A DNA stretch of 43,369 nucleotides from Treponemataceae bacterium (GTDB taxonomy: Bacteria > Spirochaetota > Spirochaetia > Treponematales > Treponemataceae), in assembly GCA_024685655.1 (NCBI GenBank), contig JAIKVO010000082.1, positions 1-43,369 on the forward strand, written 5' to 3'. Below are positions 14,681 to 24,300 of the stretch, piece by piece (the first letter of the stretch is position 1; every line of letters starts with the position of its first letter). The notes beneath the pieces were generated by a model. It saw nothing but the letters and a program-made list of their open reading frames with translations. It was not told the origin of the DNA and did not search any database. The position numbers and the translations under genes are program-made.

Positions 14681-15379
14681 ATGACATACGAATTTGAAGG
14701 AAAAACTGAAAAAGAAGCCATTGAACGTGCTGCTGCAGAATTAGGATTGGAAACAGACCAGTTTGATGTAGAGATCCTTGAAACGCAGAAAAACAGCTTA
14801 TTCAAAAAAGGTTATGTACGAATTAGAGTACAAACAGATGATGATTTAGAGAAAAGATCTGTTGAAGATGATAATTCTTTGACAAACTCTAAACGGATAT
14901 TTGCAGATCCATTACCTAAGGATGAATTTGAAAAACGGCTTGTTGATTTTATCTCAGATATGATTGAGAAAATGGGTTATGAAGTAAAAGTTGAAGTAAT
15001 GTTCAGAGAAGAACACAAAATAGGAATAAAGCTTAATTCTCCAAGTTCATCTATCCTTATTGGTAGAAAAGGAAAGAATCTTGATGCTCTTCAGCTTTTA
15101 GCCAATGTTTATGCAGGTCGTTTAGGAAGAGAAGATGTTAGAATTATTCTTGACAGCGAGAATTACAGAATAAGAAGAGAAGAATCTCTTGTAAGGCTTG
15201 CGTATACAACAGCAGATAAGGTTCGTGCAAGTCATAATTCAATTCTTCTTGAGCCGATGAATCCGTTTGAAAGACGTCTTATTCATACAACGCTCAACGA
15301 TATTGGTGATGTGGAGACAAAGAGTGAGGGAGAAGGTCTATATAAACAGGTTCGTGTAATATACAAAGGAATTCGTTAA
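14681..15379 (+). CDS. khpB: RNA-binding protein KhpB/Jag
   Basis: Jag (KhpB/EloR) is an RNA-binding protein linked to cell elongation and envelope control in other bacteria. The 232 residues have all three domains: Jag_N (about 1-50, YEFEGKTEKEAIERAAAELGLETDQFDVEIL), a KH-type domain (about 95-165, with SSILIGRKGKNLDALQLLANVYAGR) and an R3H domain (about 170-232, ending in NPFERRLIHTTLNDIGDVETKSEGEG). A GAGG site precedes the start. The next gene's ATG overlaps its stop, so the two are translationally coupled. Confidence 0.93.
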   Translation: MTYEFEGKTEKEAIERAAAELGLETDQFDVEILETQKNSLFKKGYVRIRVQTDDDLEKRSVEDDNSLTNSKRIFADPLPKDEFEKRLVDFISDMIEKMGYEVKVEVMFREEHKIGIKLNSPSSSILIGRKGKNLDALQLLANVYAGRLGREDVRIILDSENYRIRREESLVRLAYTTADKVRASHNSILLEPMNPFERRLIHTTLNDIGDVETKSEGEGLYKQVRVIYKGIR

Positions 15380-16095
15380 TGCATTTCAAGAGACTTTGTT
15401 TATCAGCTTGTTTATTTATCAGCTTTTTCTTTTTGTCAGCGCAGGAATATAATGTTGCTTATAAAGAAAAAGATGTTAAGCTCAAATTATGTCCGAATAC
15501 CACTTTTGGGAAACAGATAAAATCAGACTGGGTTTTGAAAAATGGAAAAACCCCGAATTTTGTTGCTGAAGCTTATTATAAACTTCCAAAAAAAGAGAAT
15601 ATCAATATAGATGATATCTCTGTAATGGCAAGATCTTTTTCATCTATGGAAGGAATAGAGTATTATTCGAATACCAACAACAAATATTCTGTATTATATC
15701 CTGAGTGCTACACTGTAAGTGACAAAAGTGGCAAGAAAAAAATTGCTGATATGACTTCTGGTTCAGCAGACGGCAAAAAGATTTATATTTTACAGAATGA
15801 CAACAGTTTTGGTAAATCTGTATATGAAATGAATTTTAAACAACAAGGTGAAGAACTGTTTTTTACCTCATTGAATTTAGATTCGCTTCATTATGGAATA
15901 GTTACTGCAGTAAAAGCTAAAGCATTGAAACTCACATTCCTTATCAATAATGCCGGTTCGGAATTGGAGTTTTATGTCCTTGTTGAAGGTGACATAGCTT
16001 CTTTTCCTTTCATTGACGACTTTATAAAGGATTCGTTCGTTTCAAGATTAGATGCTGTATACAATTGGTTTAGGAAAAACTATGAAGAGAAGTAA
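15379..16095 (+). CDS. Secreted protein of unknown function
   Basis: The family was not recognised. The 238-residue product begins with a clear signal peptide: basic MHFKRL, a hydrophobic core [16 protein letters not shown], and a likely cleavage before QEYN. There is no lipobox at the cleavage site, so it should be a soluble periplasmic or exported protein. The mature part is mixed polar sequence with Lys-rich stretches and no obvious repeats. The start codon overlaps the jag stop codon by one base, and the stop overlaps the next gene's start region, which places it firmly in the yidC-jag-immunophilin transcript. A role in the envelope is inferred from that context only. Confidence 0.75.
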
Positions 16096-18047: not shown

Positions 18048-19412
18048 TCAGAAAGGATTCTTTGTATCGATCTTGTTAAGAATCTTGATAAGTCCAGTTT
18101 TATCTATTAAATCTATTGGACGACCCTCAATGAATTTACGAGCTTCTTCTGTATAGGTTCCAGCCGTGAAACAAAGACCTCGACCTGCTTTCAAATCTCT
18201 TAGACGTGCATGAAATTCGCGTACAAATAACTCACCAGTTGAGCCTGTTGTTCTGTAGAATCTGAAAATAACAGTATCTTGCCATTTTGAGGTATCTATT
18301 TCAGTTAATACTTCCGTACATTCATTTGTTGCCGTTATATCAATTATTTTTACTATGGCGGTCTTTCCAAAGTAAATCTGGACTATTTTTCGACATAAAG
18401 CAATAAAATCACTGTTGCTTGAAATAAGATAAATCTGAAGGTTTGCATTTTGAGAAAGTTCTTGATATCTGGCAATTAATGCCTGAACATCTTTGAATCC
18501 AGGAACGGTTTGTTGAATTTCTTTCAAAATATTTAATGCTCGGCTTATATCGGATAGCGCAAGATAAGAATGAGCGAGTCTGTACCGTATGTTCGTAAGT
18601 ATATCAATTGGAGCTTGTGTGTGTTTTAGGCCGATTTCAAAATCTAAAATGGCTTTATCATGTTGATTTGCATTCGCATGAATAATTCCGGCAGAAAGAC
18701 AAGATTTAGCTCCGAATTCAGGATCTGGTCGCAAATGCATAAAGATTTTAAGAGCTTTTTCTCCGCTTCCACCTTCGTTCATGGCATCAGCCATAGCGAA
18801 AAGCAATTCCTTATCATCAGGATTCAAGTCAAGTGCTCGCTTAATATAAGGAAGGGATTCACGAAAATTGTGGAATTTGTATAAAGCGAGACCTGCATAT
18901 TTATAAGTGTCTTGTACTTCTTTATTGATGGCTATTGCTTTTTTGAGAAGAGGAATAGCTTTATCATATTCTTTGTTAAGATAAAAAGCCTGACCTAAGT
19001 AAAAATTCACTTCGAAATTATCTGGCTGTAATTTACGTGCTTGAATAAGACCTTTGAAAGATTCTTCAAGTTTGTTGTTTTTGAGTGCGCTTATTCCCTG
19101 TCTAAGAGCTGTGGTAAAAATATCAACTTCTGGGTGAGCTACAGCGATGCCAAGAAGAGTATCGTAAAGCGGAAATGCTTTATCCCATAATTGTTCCTTA
19201 TAATACAAATCACTAAGAGAAAGAAGTCCTGCTACATTATGTGGATCTTGTGAAAGTTTCTTTGTTGCTTCTCGTATAATTGTCTGCCGATTTTTTTGAG
19301 AAGAAGATGAAGATAAAGCCTTTTTACGTCTTGCTCCAGAAATAATAAGAAAAAGAGCAATTATGCTGAAAACAACGATAGCTGCTATAATTATAGGTAA
19401 AAGAGATTGCAT
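18048..19412 (-). CDS. Membrane-anchored TPR protein with a C-terminal Mrr-like domain
   Basis: The 454-residue product has one N-terminal membrane helix (LLPIIIAAIVVFSIIALFLII, about 4-24) followed by a basic RRKK stop. Tandem tetratricopeptide repeats span about 50-310, for example NFEVNFYLGQAFYLNKEYDKAIPLLKKA. The C-terminal domain (about 335-450) resembles the Mrr-type endonuclease fold: KAGRGLCFTAGTYTEEARKFIEG and RPIDLIDKTGLIKIL. Where active Mrr proteins carry QxK, this one reads IFR, so catalysis is doubtful. The TPR and anchor should make a cytoplasm-facing scaffold. It is divergent from the LysM operon. A -10 sits 6 nt before the ATG with no Shine-Dalgarno. Function is unknown. Confidence 0.82.
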   Translation of the reverse strand: MQSLLPIIIAAIVVFSIIALFLIISGARRKKALSSSSSQKNRQTIIREATKKLSQDPHNVAGLLSLSDLYYKEQLWDKAFPLYDTLLGIAVAHPEVDIFTTALRQGISALKNNKLEESFKGLIQARKLQPDNFEVNFYLGQAFYLNKEYDKAIPLLKKAIAINKEVQDTYKYAGLALYKFHNFRESLPYIKRALDLNPDDKELLFAMADAMNEGGSGEKALKIFMHLRPDPEFGAKSCLSAGIIHANANQHDKAILDFEIGLKHTQAPIDILTNIRYRLAHSYLALSDISRALNILKEIQQTVPGFKDVQALIARYQELSQNANLQIYLISSNSDFIALCRKIVQIYFGKTAIVKIIDITATNECTEVLTEIDTSKWQDTVIFRFYRTTGSTGELFVREFHARLRDLKAGRGLCFTAGTYTEEARKFIEGRPIDLIDKTGLIKILNKIDTKNPF

Positions 19413-19499: not shown

Positions 19500-19528
19500 T
19501 TGACAATAACGAGTAACCATAATAACAT
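19500..19528 (+). promoter_or_regulatory. Candidate promoter of the LysM operon
   Basis: A perfect TTGACA (19500-19505) lies 17 bp from TAACAT (19523-19528). The -10 is only a 4/6 match. It would give a leader of about a dozen bases that just contains the AGAGG site. Confidence 0.4.
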
Positions 19529-19546
19529 TTAGTAGAGGTGTATCTG

Positions 19547-21424
19547 TTGAGTAAAGCAATGATAGGAATAAAAATTGCAGATGGTTCCTTTTACCCGATT
19601 CTTGAAGAGGGCGTTCCAGGTGAGAAAAAACTGGTAGTTACGACCGCTCGTGATAAACAGACGACTGTACAGATAAATCTTTACAGATCAGAATCAGGTA
19701 ATATGGATGATGCAGATTATGTAGATACGCTTCTTATTGATAATCTTAAGCCACATCAGAAGGAAGAACCTTCGTTCAATCTTATAGTTAAAATAGATGA
19801 AAATAATATGCTATCAGCAGAAATTGATGATCCAGAAACTGGGGAAAAATCTGATACAAAAGTCTCGCTGGTGAATATGGGAAATAAGTCAATTTTCGAT
19901 GATACGGATTTTACAGTATCTGCTGAAGAAGAGCCTGCGACATATACACCTGTAGAAGATACACCTGAAGCAGAAGACGATGAAATATCGGAAAATTCAG
20001 ATGAGGTAGAATTAGAATCAAATTTAGATGAAGAAGATTTTTCTTTAAGCGATACACTTAGTGATATTCCAGATTTAGACGATGAGCAAATTAAAACAGA
20101 AAAAAACGATGATTTTTCTTTTTCAGATGAAGAAGACTCAGATGAGCAATTATATGGAGGATTTCCTCCTGATATAGCATCTATTATATATGACGATTTT
20201 TCTTTTTCAGAAAAGGCAGAAAAAATTAAAGCAGAAAAGGAAGAGCCAATACCAGAACCAAGCGAATCTGCATCTGATGATTTTGCCCTTCCAGACTTCG
20301 ATAGTCTTGATGAACCAGAAGAAACCCCTATAGCTTCGGATGACTTTTCTGTACAAGATGATTTAGGTACAGAAACATTAAACGATGATTTTTCATTTAC
20401 CGAGGAGCAGACAGATCAGTCACCCTCAATTGATGATATATCAGAAAATAACGACGACTTTTCTTTTTCAGATGAAGCAGCTACAGATGAGCAATTATCT
20501 GAGGAAGTCCCGGATGATATAGCATCTATTATAGATGACGACTTTTCTTTTTCGGATCAAGCAGAAGAAATTAAGGCAGAAAAAGAAGAGGTTGTAGCAG
20601 AACCGATTGCGGAAGCTGTTTTGTCAGACGATGATTTTTCATTTTCTACAGATTTTTTGGATGATGAAAATGAAGCTGATGACGATGAAAAACCGTTCTC
20701 ATTCGATTCTTTACCAGATTTCGATGAAATACCGGAACTTGCTGATTCGTCAGAAAAATCTGAATTTGCTACTGATGATTTGGACATTGATTTCACAATA
20801 CCAGAAGAAAACGATATGAAAAGAAAAAATTACAACGACACTTACGATGATTACTCGGATCAGCAGTCAAACTATGAATATGCATCTAGTGGTGGAATGC
20901 AAAATGCTTTGTTCGGTGGCGATGATTTGTTTGAAGAGACAAAGAAACGAAAAGAGCGTAGGAATATAGTACCTGTTATAATTTGTATTTTGTGTGCGCT
21001 TATATCATTAGGTGTTTTAGGTATAATTCTTTATTTAACACCATCAATTATGAAGATAGCTGGTGGAAAACAAGCTGAAAATACAGCTGTTATAGAATCT
21101 GTGGAATCTGGTGCAGAAAAACAGATTATAGAAGCAGAAGAGGAAATAATAATCCCAGAACCAACTATACGGAAAACGGAAGAAAACAAGATAGTTGTCT
21201 TAAATGAAACAGTTCCTCCTGTTGTTCCTGAAACGAAAAAAGAGCAAAAAGAAATTTCAAATATAATAAGGCATCTTGTAAAGTGGGGAGACACTCTTTG
21301 GGATTTGGCGGGATTCTATTACAGGAATCCGTGGTTATATAAGATTATTTCAGATGCAAATAATCTAAAGAATCCAGATTTAATAATTTCAGGTACATAC
21401 CTGACGATTCCGGATCATGAGTAG
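19547..21424 (+). CDS. Acidic-repeat membrane protein with C-terminal LysM domain
   Basis: The 625-residue product has four parts. An N-terminal globular segment (1-110) starts MSKAMIGIKIADGSFYPILEEG. An extremely acidic, probably disordered region (about 125-430) contains many DDFSFSDE-like units. One transmembrane helix follows (about 472-494, NIVPVIICILCALISLGVLGIIL). A C-terminal LysM domain (about 574-622, VKWGDTLWDLAGFYYRNPWLYKIISDANNLKNPDLIISGTYLTIP) should bind peptidoglycan. The acidic part would be cytoplasmic and the LysM periplasmic. TTG 19547 is preferred because AGAGG lies 8 nt upstream; GTG 19538 and ATG 19559 are alternatives. It heads a cell-wall operon with the next two genes. 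The acidic part may bind partners, which is inference. Confidence 0.82.
   Translation: MSKAMIGIKIADGSFYPILEEGVPGEKKLVVTTARDKQTTVQINLYRSESGNMDDADYVDTLLIDNLKPHQKEEPSFNLIVKIDENNMLSAEIDDPETGEKSDTKVSLVNMGNKSIFDDTDFTVSAEEEPATYTPVEDTPEAEDDEISENSDEVELESNLDEEDFSLSDTLSDIPDLDDEQIKTEKNDDFSFSDEEDSDEQLYGGFPPDIASIIYDDFSFSEKAEKIKAEKEEPIPEPSESASDDFALPDFDSLDEPEETPIASDDFSVQDDLGTETLNDDFSFTEEQTDQSPSIDDISENNDDFSFSDEAATDEQLSEEVPDDIASIIDDDFSFSDQAEEIKAEKEEVVAEPIAEAVLSDDDFSFSTDFLDDENEADDDEKPFSFDSLPDFDEIPELADSSEKSEFATDDLDIDFTIPEENDMKRKNYNDTYDDYSDQQSNYEYASSGGMQNALFGGDDLFEETKKRKERRNIVPVIICILCALISLGVLGIILYLTPSIMKIAGGKQAENTAVIESVESGAEKQIIEAEEEIIIPEPTIRKTEENKIVVLNETVPPVVPETKKEQKEISNIIRHLVKWGDTLWDLAGFYYRNPWLYKIISDANNLKNPDLIISGTYLTIPDHE
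20103..20600 (+). repeat. Internal repeats coding DDFSFSD units
   Basis: Within the LysM gene a module of roughly 150 bp occurs twice, at about 20103-20255 and 20454-20606. Both copies code for NDDFSFSDE, then DEQL, then DIASII, then DDFSFS and KAEKEE. Shorter DDFS(F/V) units lie between and around them. The copies have drifted at third positions and by substitutions, so this is an old duplication still under coding constraint. Confidence 0.8.
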
Positions 21425-21432
21425 ACGAGTAT

Positions 21433-23526
21433 ATGAATAAACAGAAAGTTATCTTTTTACTATTCATATTATTAAGCATGTATTTGTTTATTTCATGCTC
21501 TCCTAAAGAAGAAAAAACAGACACCTATTATTTTTCTGCTTTACAAAAAATTGAGAATGGAGAAAAAGAAGAAGCTGTTACTCTTCTTGAAAAGGGAATA
21601 AGAAATTCGTCACCTGCAGTTTCTAGACTTTGTTCCCTTTATTTATCAGAAATTAACAAGAAAAAAGCAATCGAAATAATTGAAAATGCACTCAAACAAT
21701 TTCCAGATGATAATGCAGTGAATTGCCGTTACATGACAGTTCTATATGAAGCTGGAAAATATAATGAATTACTTGATTTTTCGGAAAAGAAAAGAGAGTT
21801 TCTCGGGAAAGATAATGAATATATAAAATACCGTTTGTTAGCACTCGCAAAAATAGGCGACAATCGTTTTGCCAATGAATTTGAATCATGGTTCACAGAA
21901 ACTAAATTCACTTCTTATCACAGGGAATTTCTTGATGATTGGCATAAAGACAGCTCATATATAGAGTTTAAATATTATAATGAAGATACTTTTGACCGTT
22001 TTGAAAAAGTGATAAATGCACGTCTTTATGTAAACGCTGGAAATTATTCAAAAGCATATAAGGAAATTTGCTCTGCGGAGGAAACAGAAGAAAAGCTTGT
22101 GAATTTGTTGTGTTCTTTTTCTTTGAATGTACTCTCTGATATTGGAAAAGCGTTTTTGTACGGAACCTCAAACAAAGTGGTTGATGCTTTGATTTTTTCA
22201 AAAGCAGGAGTTCAAGCAGAGCAAAATGAAAAGAAGCAAATCCTGTTTTTTTATGCTGGGCGAATGCTCGACAAAGCAGGCAGTGCATATAGAAACACAG
22301 CTCTGGAAAACTTGAGAACATCGTATTCGCTCGCAGCAGATTCTGCATCACGAGATAATGCATTATGGTATTATCTTGAAACATCGCGACATATATCGCT
22401 GGAAAAAGCAGTTTCTGCCTTGAATGAACTAGCTCCAAGTTGGACTGATCCTACATATTTTGAAGATTTTTTTGATGATTTAAGTCAGGAATTGCTTTAC
22501 GCAAAAGAAAATGATTTATTCTGCAATATTTTTGAAAAGAATAAGTTTTATTTCAGCAAAGCGAGCTATACAAAATATGCATACATAACAGCCCGACTTA
22601 TTGAAGAAGATATGGCAGAACCTCCTTCAGGGCCAAAGCAAATTTATATTGACTCGTTACTTGATTCTGCATGGGAAACATCGGAAGCAAATACATATTA
22701 TCGCATTCTTTTAGCAGATAAAATGAAAAAATCAGATTTTGATTTTTTTGCGTCTGATGCAATAAGTTTGGAAATAAAAGATTCTGATGAAGAAAAAATT
22801 GCCGCTTCATTGTTGGACAATTCCTTATATCAGCATTTTTACACATATTACAAAAACAATTGGAGAAATATTTCTGAATTATATTCAATTGAATTAATAA
22901 AGCAGATAAAAGAGGCAGAAAAAGCAAATAAAGAAAAATACGCGGATGTCCTTAGACTTTCCAGTACTGGTTTAAGTGACAGTGAATTAAAATATAGGAA
23001 AGATATTTTTAAATCTTTATATCCAAGATTCTATGAAGATAAAATTTCTGAAAAGACGGCAGAATACAAATTACCAGAGTATTTTGTTTATTCGCTAATA
23101 AGAACCGAAAGTTATTTTGATTTTGACGTATATTCATCAGCAGGAGCAATCGGTTTATGTCAATTAATGGAACAAACTGCTTCTGATATAGCAAAAAAAC
23201 TTAAGATGGAACAATACGATCTTTTGGATCCGGATACAAATATGACTTTTGGTATATATTATTTAAGCGAATTGATCAGAAGACTTGATAATAATAGCAT
23301 ACAAGCGTTTCTTGCGTATAACTGCGGAATTACACGACTACGTAATTGGAACGAGACGTTCAAAGGATTGCCTGTTGATTTATTTTTAGAAATAGTTCCA
23401 ATTGAGGAAACTCGTGAGTATGGAAAAAAGATACTGACAGCTGCTTGTTTATACGGGAATCTTTATTATAATAAACCTTTTTCAGTAATCTTGGACGAAA
23501 TGTTTTGTAGAATGAAGCAATCGTAA
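21433..23526 (+). CDS. Soluble lytic transglycosylase-type lipoprotein (Slt/MltE-like SLT domain)
   Basis: The 697-residue product begins with a lipoprotein signal, MNKQKVIFLLFILLSMYLFISC (Cys22). A long alpha-helical, TPR-like region (about 40-520) resembles the Slt70 superhelix. The C-terminal SLT catalytic domain (about 540-680) contains YSLIRTESYFDFDVYSSAGA with catalytic Glu near residue 559, then IGLCQLMEQTA and FLAYNCGITRL. The enzyme cleaves peptidoglycan glycan strands, forming 1,6-anhydro ends. AYNCG replaces the usual AYNAG. It starts 8 nt after the LysM gene, so cotranscription is very likely, and a polysaccharide deacetylase follows 15 nt later. Confidence 0.9.
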   Translation: MNKQKVIFLLFILLSMYLFISCSPKEEKTDTYYFSALQKIENGEKEEAVTLLEKGIRNSSPAVSRLCSLYLSEINKKKAIEIIENALKQFPDDNAVNCRYMTVLYEAGKYNELLDFSEKKREFLGKDNEYIKYRLLALAKIGDNRFANEFESWFTETKFTSYHREFLDDWHKDSSYIEFKYYNEDTFDRFEKVINARLYVNAGNYSKAYKEICSAEETEEKLVNLLCSFSLNVLSDIGKAFLYGTSNKVVDALIFSKAGVQAEQNEKKQILFFYAGRMLDKAGSAYRNTALENLRTSYSLAADSASRDNALWYYLETSRHISLEKAVSALNELAPSWTDPTYFEDFFDDLSQELLYAKENDLFCNIFEKNKFYFSKASYTKYAYITARLIEEDMAEPPSGPKQIYIDSLLDSAWETSEANTYYRILLADKMKKSDFDFFASDAISLEIKDSDEEKIAASLLDNSLYQHFYTYYKNNWRNISELYSIELIKQIKEAEKANKEKYADVLRLSSTGLSDSELKYRKDIFKSLYPRFYEDKISEKTAEYKLPEYFVYSLIRTESYFDFDVYSSAGAIGLCQLMEQTASDIAKKLKMEQYDLLDPDTNMTFGIYYLSELIRRLDNNSIQAFLAYNCGITRLRNWNETFKGLPVDLFLEIVPIEETREYGKKILTAACLYGNLYYNKPFSVILDEMFCRMKQS

Positions 23527-23541
23527 AAGGAGATAGATGAT

Positions 23542-24300
23542 ATGATTACAGCCTATTTAACAATCGATGACATACCAACGAAACAAACTCCGAAATTAAT
23601 TGATTTTCTTGTTTCATTGAATATTAGACCTATTATGTTTTGCTGGGGACAAAGGCTTGAAGAATGCAGAAGTGAAGCGATTTATGCACTAAAAAATGGC
23701 GCCGTTTTACAGAACCACAGTTACAGCCATCCGCATTTTAGCGATCTTTCGTTTGAAGAGGCAAAAAAAGAAATTCTGCGCAACGAAGAACTTTTGGAAA
23801 TTATTTATGCAGAAGCTGGGGTAAAACGGGAGTATAAGCTTTTCCGCTTTCCGTATGGTGACCAAGGCGGTGAGAACAAGAATAAAATTCAACAATTTTT
23901 GCGTGAACAAGGATTTGCGCATATAGATGACCAGGCTTTTGACAATATGATGTATGTACAAAAGGGTCAAAAAGAAGACACTGATGTTTATTGGACATTT
24001 GATTACGCAGAGTACAACATACGGCCAGGCAGTTCTTTCAAGTTTGAGGATGTTATAAACAGAATAAATGATTTTGTCGGGTCGTCGGCAGTTAAGTGTG
24101 CAGAAAGCAGAGATTGTAATGATATAGCCACATGGAAAGAAGGACAAAGCGGAAAAGCTCCTGACGGGGCTGTTTCAAAAAACATAATCCTTATACATGA
24201 TCACACAGAAACGGAAGAATGCTACCCCGGCTACTTTGAAAAGCAGATAAAGCTTGTTTTGGAGCGAGGAGTTCGTTTCGTGGATCCAGCTGTTATATAG
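23542..24300 (+). CDS. Polysaccharide deacetylase (NodB homology domain)
   Basis: The 252 residues show the NodB fold motifs: TIDD with the catalytic base and metal Asp (Asp9-Asp10), the metal-binding HSYSH (His59, His63), RFPYGDQGG (motif 3) and the late ILIHDHTE (motif 5). Members remove N-acetyl groups from peptidoglycan, chitin or related glycans with a metal ion. No signal peptide is present, unusual for a wall enzyme, so it may act inside the cell or be a carbohydrate esterase of another substrate. GGAG precedes the ATG. It is the last gene of the LysM-transglycosylase operon. Confidence 0.88.
   Translation: MITAYLTIDDIPTKQTPKLIDFLVSLNIRPIMFCWGQRLEECRSEAIYALKNGAVLQNHSYSHPHFSDLSFEEAKKEILRNEELLEIIYAEAGVKREYKLFRFPYGDQGGENKNKIQQFLREQGFAHIDDQAFDNMMYVQKGQKEDTDVYWTFDYAEYNIRPGSSFKFEDVINRINDFVGSSAVKCAESRDCNDIATWKEGQSGKAPDGAVSKNIILIHDHTETEECYPGYFEKQIKLVLERGVRFVDPAVI

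Follow-up and report, generated by a model that had tools for sequence, protein, structure and literature searches.

Background

Periplasmic flagella are the basis of spirochaete motility, and an enzyme implicated in them is the lytic transglycosylase BB0259 (LTase-Bb) of Borrelia burgdorferi, which interacts with FlgJ and whose loss impairs motility (PMC8517470); a term search of that Borrelia study returned no mention of BB0260 or of LysM. Here we describe a spirochaete gene family that combines features of this system with those of two others, the substrate-binding domain (SBD) of Hsp70 and DnaK and the bitopic LysM proteins of the inner membrane. The member analysed lies in a Treponemataceae contig of 43,369 nucleotides, referred to throughout as the window. 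With the BB0259/LTase-Bb system (NF047373; PMC8517470) it shares the enzyme, which most loci encode immediately after the protein and of which the window copy lies far above the model's cut-off, whereas Borreliaceae themselves carry a diverged, LysM-less version of the protein at the BB0260 position. Like the SBD of Hsp70 and DnaK, the N-terminal domain is an eight-strand beta-sandwich, but the family has neither a nucleotide-binding domain nor a linker, its lid is at most a short helix, and the protein is predicted to be fixed to the membrane. Like bitopic LysM proteins, it has one membrane helix and a LysM domain in the predicted periplasm, but here the predicted cytoplasmic part is an Hsp70 SBD followed by an acidic, motif-bearing tail. 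We know of no precedent for an Hsp70 SBD that is free of its ATPase and joined to a membrane helix and a wall-binding domain, and a search of the open literature found no paper on a protein of this architecture. We tentatively favour reading the protein as a peptide receptor that is anchored to the wall where flagella are assembled, a role that we hold to be quite possible though short of probable.

The gene and its product

The gene is a single intact open reading frame, and its features are as follows.

19534-19539, plus strand: ribosome-binding site AGAGGT, read directly, 7 nt 5' of the TTG at 19547
19547-21424, plus strand: whole gene (SBD-beta, acidic tail, membrane helix and LysM), TTG start, 625 amino acids
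19547-19882, plus strand: stand-alone Hsp70 SBD-beta, residues 1-112 (PF00012, PDB profile, AlphaFold with Foldseek, VIA-align)
19883-20968, plus strand: acidic low-complexity tail, predicted cytoplasmic (composition, repeat analysis)
19892-19918, plus strand: conserved motif after the SBD, FDDTDFTVS (family consensus P-D-[FY]-x-[LIVF])
20104-20652, plus strand: DDFS(F)S unit, seven in-register copies as a 27-nt DNA repeat
20969-21037, plus strand: single transmembrane helix, VPVIICILCALISLGVLGIILYL (hydropathy), with KKRKERR just before it
21272-21412, plus strand: LysM domain, predicted periplasmic (PF01476, E 1.2e-5)

The frame 19547-21424 contains no internal stop, and a pseudogene or frameshift reading was discarded, the frames being open and under purifying selection. 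A sigma-70-like site at 19500-19528 was considered as a promoter and is unconvincing, the start codon being too near. The acidic tail, membrane helix and LysM domain that a first-pass annotation had described here are real; the same annotation took the cytoplasmic side to consist of repeats alone, and so overlooked the folded SBD-beta of residues 1-112.

An Hsp70 substrate-binding domain with an altered cleft

Residues 1-112 are an Hsp70 substrate-binding beta-sandwich, an identity reached by four routes. The Hsp70 family model (PF00012) matches the window protein above its cut-off, over profile positions 395-548 only, and is also matched by 49 of 53 family members. A profile built from 34 members, compared with the PDB, retrieves the SBDs of BiP, Hsp70 and DnaK (best E 1.6e-11, many below 1e-9). 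AlphaFold models of the window domain (pLDDT 70) and of the homologue L120 (53 alignment rows, pLDDT ~95 over the domain) both have Hsp70 SBDs as their top Foldseek matches, and the L120 model superposes on DnaK (4r5l) with a VIA-align Z of 16.2, 1.6 A over 107 residues at 22% identity. The consensus of the N-terminal domain is, in addition, 26% identical (E 1e-7) to the DnaK of the same treponeme genomes. The window's genome also holds further Hsp70-like matches apart from DnaK, at G000:C143:248-3234, in at least two frames.

The ATPase domain and the interdomain linker are absent: the open reading frame begins at the first strand of the SBD, and the linker columns have no counterpart in the alignment. 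The family thus belongs to the SBD fold and, lacking the ATPase domain, falls outside the Hsp70 chaperones. Nor is a full helical lid (SBD-alpha) present, the window sequence 3' of the SBD being acidic and of low complexity; the L120 model shows only one helix (residues 108-114) beyond the last strand, followed by a low-confidence tail, and this short helix is possibly what is left of lid helix A. Chaperone cycling is not expected, because the ATPase, the linker and most of the lid have been lost.

In the cleft itself, the equivalents of DnaK I401, T428 and Q433 are invariant, and that of V436 nearly so, among the 34 aligned members; unlike DnaK, the family has Ala at the M404 position (33 of 34), Lys at the E402 position (34 of 34) and mostly Leu at that of F426. 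With its core kept and the M404 and E402 positions changed, the cleft is likely to be usable for peptides but altered. The fold and the hydrophobic cleft core would also suit a membrane-tethered holdase, which would keep flagellar subunits bound for export, or envelope proteins, close to the export machinery as unfolded precursors, with folding left to DnaK or another chaperone. We consider this improbable, as the lid is gone but for what may be left of its first helix and the arch residue M404 has become Ala, changes that would be expected to weaken client holding, and the gene neighbourhood has no pointers to secretion.

The acidic tail and its motifs

The tail of ~355 residues lies on the predicted cytoplasmic side and is ~35% Asp plus Glu and 5% Lys plus Arg. 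An extra EDFSLSD unit near position 20036 brings the DDFS-type units to seven to eight, to which looser copies can be added. A segment of 168 nt occurs twice (20092-20259 and 20437-20604, 81% identical, 345 nt apart); this doubling, together with the repeated 27-nt unit, indicates that the tail grows by local duplication.

The window tail has 11 instances of a more general pattern, D-[FY]-x-hydrophobic, where 1.4 are expected when the same residues are shuffled. Across the tails of the family there are 161 occurrences, 5.5-fold above the 29 expected by shuffling (the reversed pattern gives 39), figures to be read with the pattern having been set after inspection and related tails not being independent. 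Most members keep one such motif 10-20 residues past the SBD, as P-D-[F/Y]-x-[L/I/V/F] or something close to it; examples are EIPDFSFSEE in L120, DLPDFELE in L104 and IPDFDLSP in L054. Enriched, and with one copy at a conserved position, the motif looks as a short linear motif would, and the likeness to multivalent linear motifs drawn in the first-pass annotation is supported; the DDFSFSDE units of the window are best read, from the sequences compared, as amplified versions of this older family motif.

The FSFSD repeat, earlier taken as the core feature, was dropped as the defining conserved part, and the most conserved cytoplasmic element is the SBD. DFSFS occurs in five copies in the window's genome, once each in two sister genomes and nowhere else among the members examined, and the tail ranges from ~30 to 620 residues across members. 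A repeat region variable or frameshifted in relatives had been named as grounds for abandoning the earlier reading: variable it is, but frameshifted it is not, since the tail is in frame in the sister genomes with dN/dS of ~0.15-0.2 against 0.04-0.05 for the SBD (dS being near saturation). The end of the tail is also conserved in the sisters (EKPFSFDSLP, FDEIPEL). The DNA pattern GAYGAYTTYWSNTTYWSN, which encodes DDFSFS, matches the window's genome eight times, six of them inside the LysM gene, and a reversed control pattern matches twice; other proteins sharing DDFSFS were therefore rejected as a set of partners, their two matches being the same number as the control gives.

The enrichment and fixed place of the motif raise the idea that it is a built-in ligand of the SBD, acting as a pseudo-substrate in cis or by clustering in trans, with repeat number setting the valency; the Lys that all 34 aligned members carry at the E402 position might suit acidic-flanked ligands. 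Canonical Hsp70 clefts, however, disfavour acidic flanks, and the motif region reaches a pLDDT of only 55-69 in the L120 model and below 50 in that of the window. Built-in ligands, which could coexist with the receptor that we favour, seem to us doubtful.

Membrane helix, LysM domain and topology

No N-terminal signal precedes the SBD, and it is chiefly on this ground that the N-terminus is predicted to be cytoplasmic and the LysM domain periplasmic; Lys and Arg counts on the two flanks of the membrane helix favour N-in for 33 of 56 members, too few to settle the topology across the family. On the predicted periplasmic side, a stretch rich in proline and glutamate runs up to the LysM domain, which scores 25.6 bits in the window (gathering threshold 20.9) and 45.4 bits in the Treponema pallidum member, and which probably holds peptidoglycan glycan. 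The earlier picture of a bitopic anchor, with LysM on one side of the membrane and an acidic tail with aromatic motifs on the other, is thus supported.

Gene neighbourhood

Two neighbours of the gene recur in other spirochaetes.

18048-19412, minus strand: divergent TPR membrane protein with a C-terminal Mrr_cat-like match, adjoining the pair in several families
21433-23526, plus strand: next gene, BB0259-family flagellar assembly lytic transglycosylase (NF047373, 509.5 bits against a cut-off of 234; SLT domain)

The transglycosylase gene follows that of the SBD protein after 8 nt in the window. Among 80 named loci, all of them spirochaete records, an SLT relative of the window enzyme lies directly 3' in 70 of the 72 with room for one, at a median gap of 21 nt. 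This pairing recurs in several other families of the order and the class, in T. pallidum and in Borreliaceae, and NF047373 confirms the transglycosylase in the examples scanned, with 719 bits in T. pallidum. A wall-related partner, as the first reading had suggested, is supported by gene order, which points to this flagellar enzyme in particular.

Relatives of the TPR protein adjoin one or other gene of the pair in Borrelia and in families f13, f18, f35 and others, and GidB is encoded near the LysM gene in the window as well. The TPR gene and gidB are frequent, not constant, neighbours; as obligate partners they were set aside, being found at only 12 of the 80 named loci. Directly 3' of the transglycosylase in the window is a polysaccharide deacetylase gene (23542-24300), which is nearby in 3 of the 80 named loci. 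Upstream in the window are the RNA-binding elongation regulator Jag/EloR (14681-15376) and an adjoining gene for a 238-residue protein (15379-16095) without an NCBIfam match. In family f9 the gene next to that of the SBD protein is FtsK, and in Borrelia the gene order continues towards genes that, from their position, we take to be UppP-like and FtsK-like.

The FtsK gene in f9 and the order in Borrelia make a role in division or wall growth compatible with the data too. The protein and enzyme would then organise peptidoglycan turnover as a general anchor, the flagellar link being secondary and the SBD binding an elongation or division protein. The combination of LysM with a lytic transglycosylase fits such a role, as do the deacetylase downstream and EloR/Jag and GidB nearby in the window. 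We nevertheless rate it as rather unlikely, and what tells against it comes from genomes in which enzyme and flagella are parted.

Co-occurrence with flagella

The FliF model (TIGR00206) and the SBD profile were scored on the same sampled genomes of the class, at an SBD threshold of ~1e-14 that left two or three genomes borderline. The SBD protein was found in ~125 of 139 FliF-positive genomes (~90%; class outside Borreliaceae) and in none of 37 FliF-negative ones (35 of family f12 plus G569 and G573 of f4), counts that are not independent events, the independent losses being few (at least two). Three genomes (the window's own, G104 and G333) had appeared as counter-examples, with the SBD protein and no FliF match, and were dismissed, since FlhA is present in all three. 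In family f12 wall functions may have gone along with the flagella, perhaps in a single loss.

G569 and G573 have neither FliF nor FlhA: both keep the transglycosylase, and no SBD gene was found at its locus, a pattern that argues against a general role in wall growth or division. Conversely, three f9 genomes encode FliF and the SBD protein but no full-length member of the BB0259 transglycosylase family. From these two patterns, the SBD protein tracks flagella somewhat more closely than it tracks the enzyme. Flagella in general can do without it: f15, f18, some of f10 and f13 and a few genomes of the same order are flagellated without a recognisable member.

Proposed role

The receptor that we favour would be a bitopic anchor of the inner membrane in which the cytoplasmic SBD-beta is probably a passive peptide receptor, joined to the membrane helix by a flexible acidic tail with its D-[F/Y]-x-hydrophobic motifs. 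The SBD would bind a protein of the flagellum or of wall synthesis by a segment in extended form; on the periplasmic side, the anchor would hold the wall, and perhaps the enzyme too, at that spot. Most likely, anchor and BB0259-type transglycosylase would together mark or license the sites where periplasmic flagella cross the wall. What has been observed is the identity of the domains, their arrangement, the gene pairing, the conservation and, in the class as sampled, the joint absence with FliF; topology, the binding of peptide and wall, contact with the enzyme and the flagellar role are inferred from these.

A bolder form of this proposal is that spirochaetes split the Hsp70 SBD from its ATPase and made of it a peptide receptor tethered to membrane and wall, through which an event in the cytoplasm (probably the export or assembly of flagella) is coupled to the co-encoded transglycosylase opening the wall locally, the protein's own acidic DFx-hydrophobic motifs serving as tunable ligands. 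Taken as a whole this is speculative, and we think it somewhat unlikely.

Conservation of the family extends from treponemes of the rumen to T. pallidum, with a diverged form in Borreliaceae, and its gene lies beside that of an enzyme implicated in building periplasmic flagella. If the proposed role is true, it would help to explain how cutting of the wall by this enzyme is confined to flagellar sites, and the peptide cleft of Hsp70 would be put to a rare use, as a static receptor. Genes with no curated family name beyond LysM or DnaK fragment also gain a function that can be tested.

Distribution and divergent members

The SBD-LysM protein was matched in 265 of 274 Treponemataceae genomes, and the SBD protein is also found in other families of the order, class and phylum. 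A long acidic tail is typical of Treponemataceae, and the named loci span 344-1038 codons from the start of the match, some being cut by contig ends. Many forms outside this family are short (~270-400 amino acids, with tails of ~30-150 residues). Short forms such as the T. pallidum member (310 amino acids, L052:8512-9444) keep the SBD, the transmembrane helix and LysM and have almost no tail. The T. pallidum gene is probably TP0042: the reverse primer that PMC7864442 gives for tp0041-42 matches the complementary strand of L052 a little upstream of it.

In Borreliaceae the diverged SBD homologue lies directly upstream of the transglycosylase. It was recognised by the profile (E 2e-5) and by its likeness to the L111 member (69 residues aligned at 40% identity, E 2e-13); its tail is of Ser, Asn and acidic residues, and a membrane helix lies at the C-terminus. 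The genes at the BB0260 position in L124 (5823-6977) and L123 (6456-7751) matched no Pfam family. LysM is also absent from some members of other families. One f5 genome, G320, has two SBD copies (L131:6105-6716 and L110:6932-7960), of which the LysM-less one adjoins the transglycosylase and the one with LysM lies elsewhere, suggesting a split of roles.
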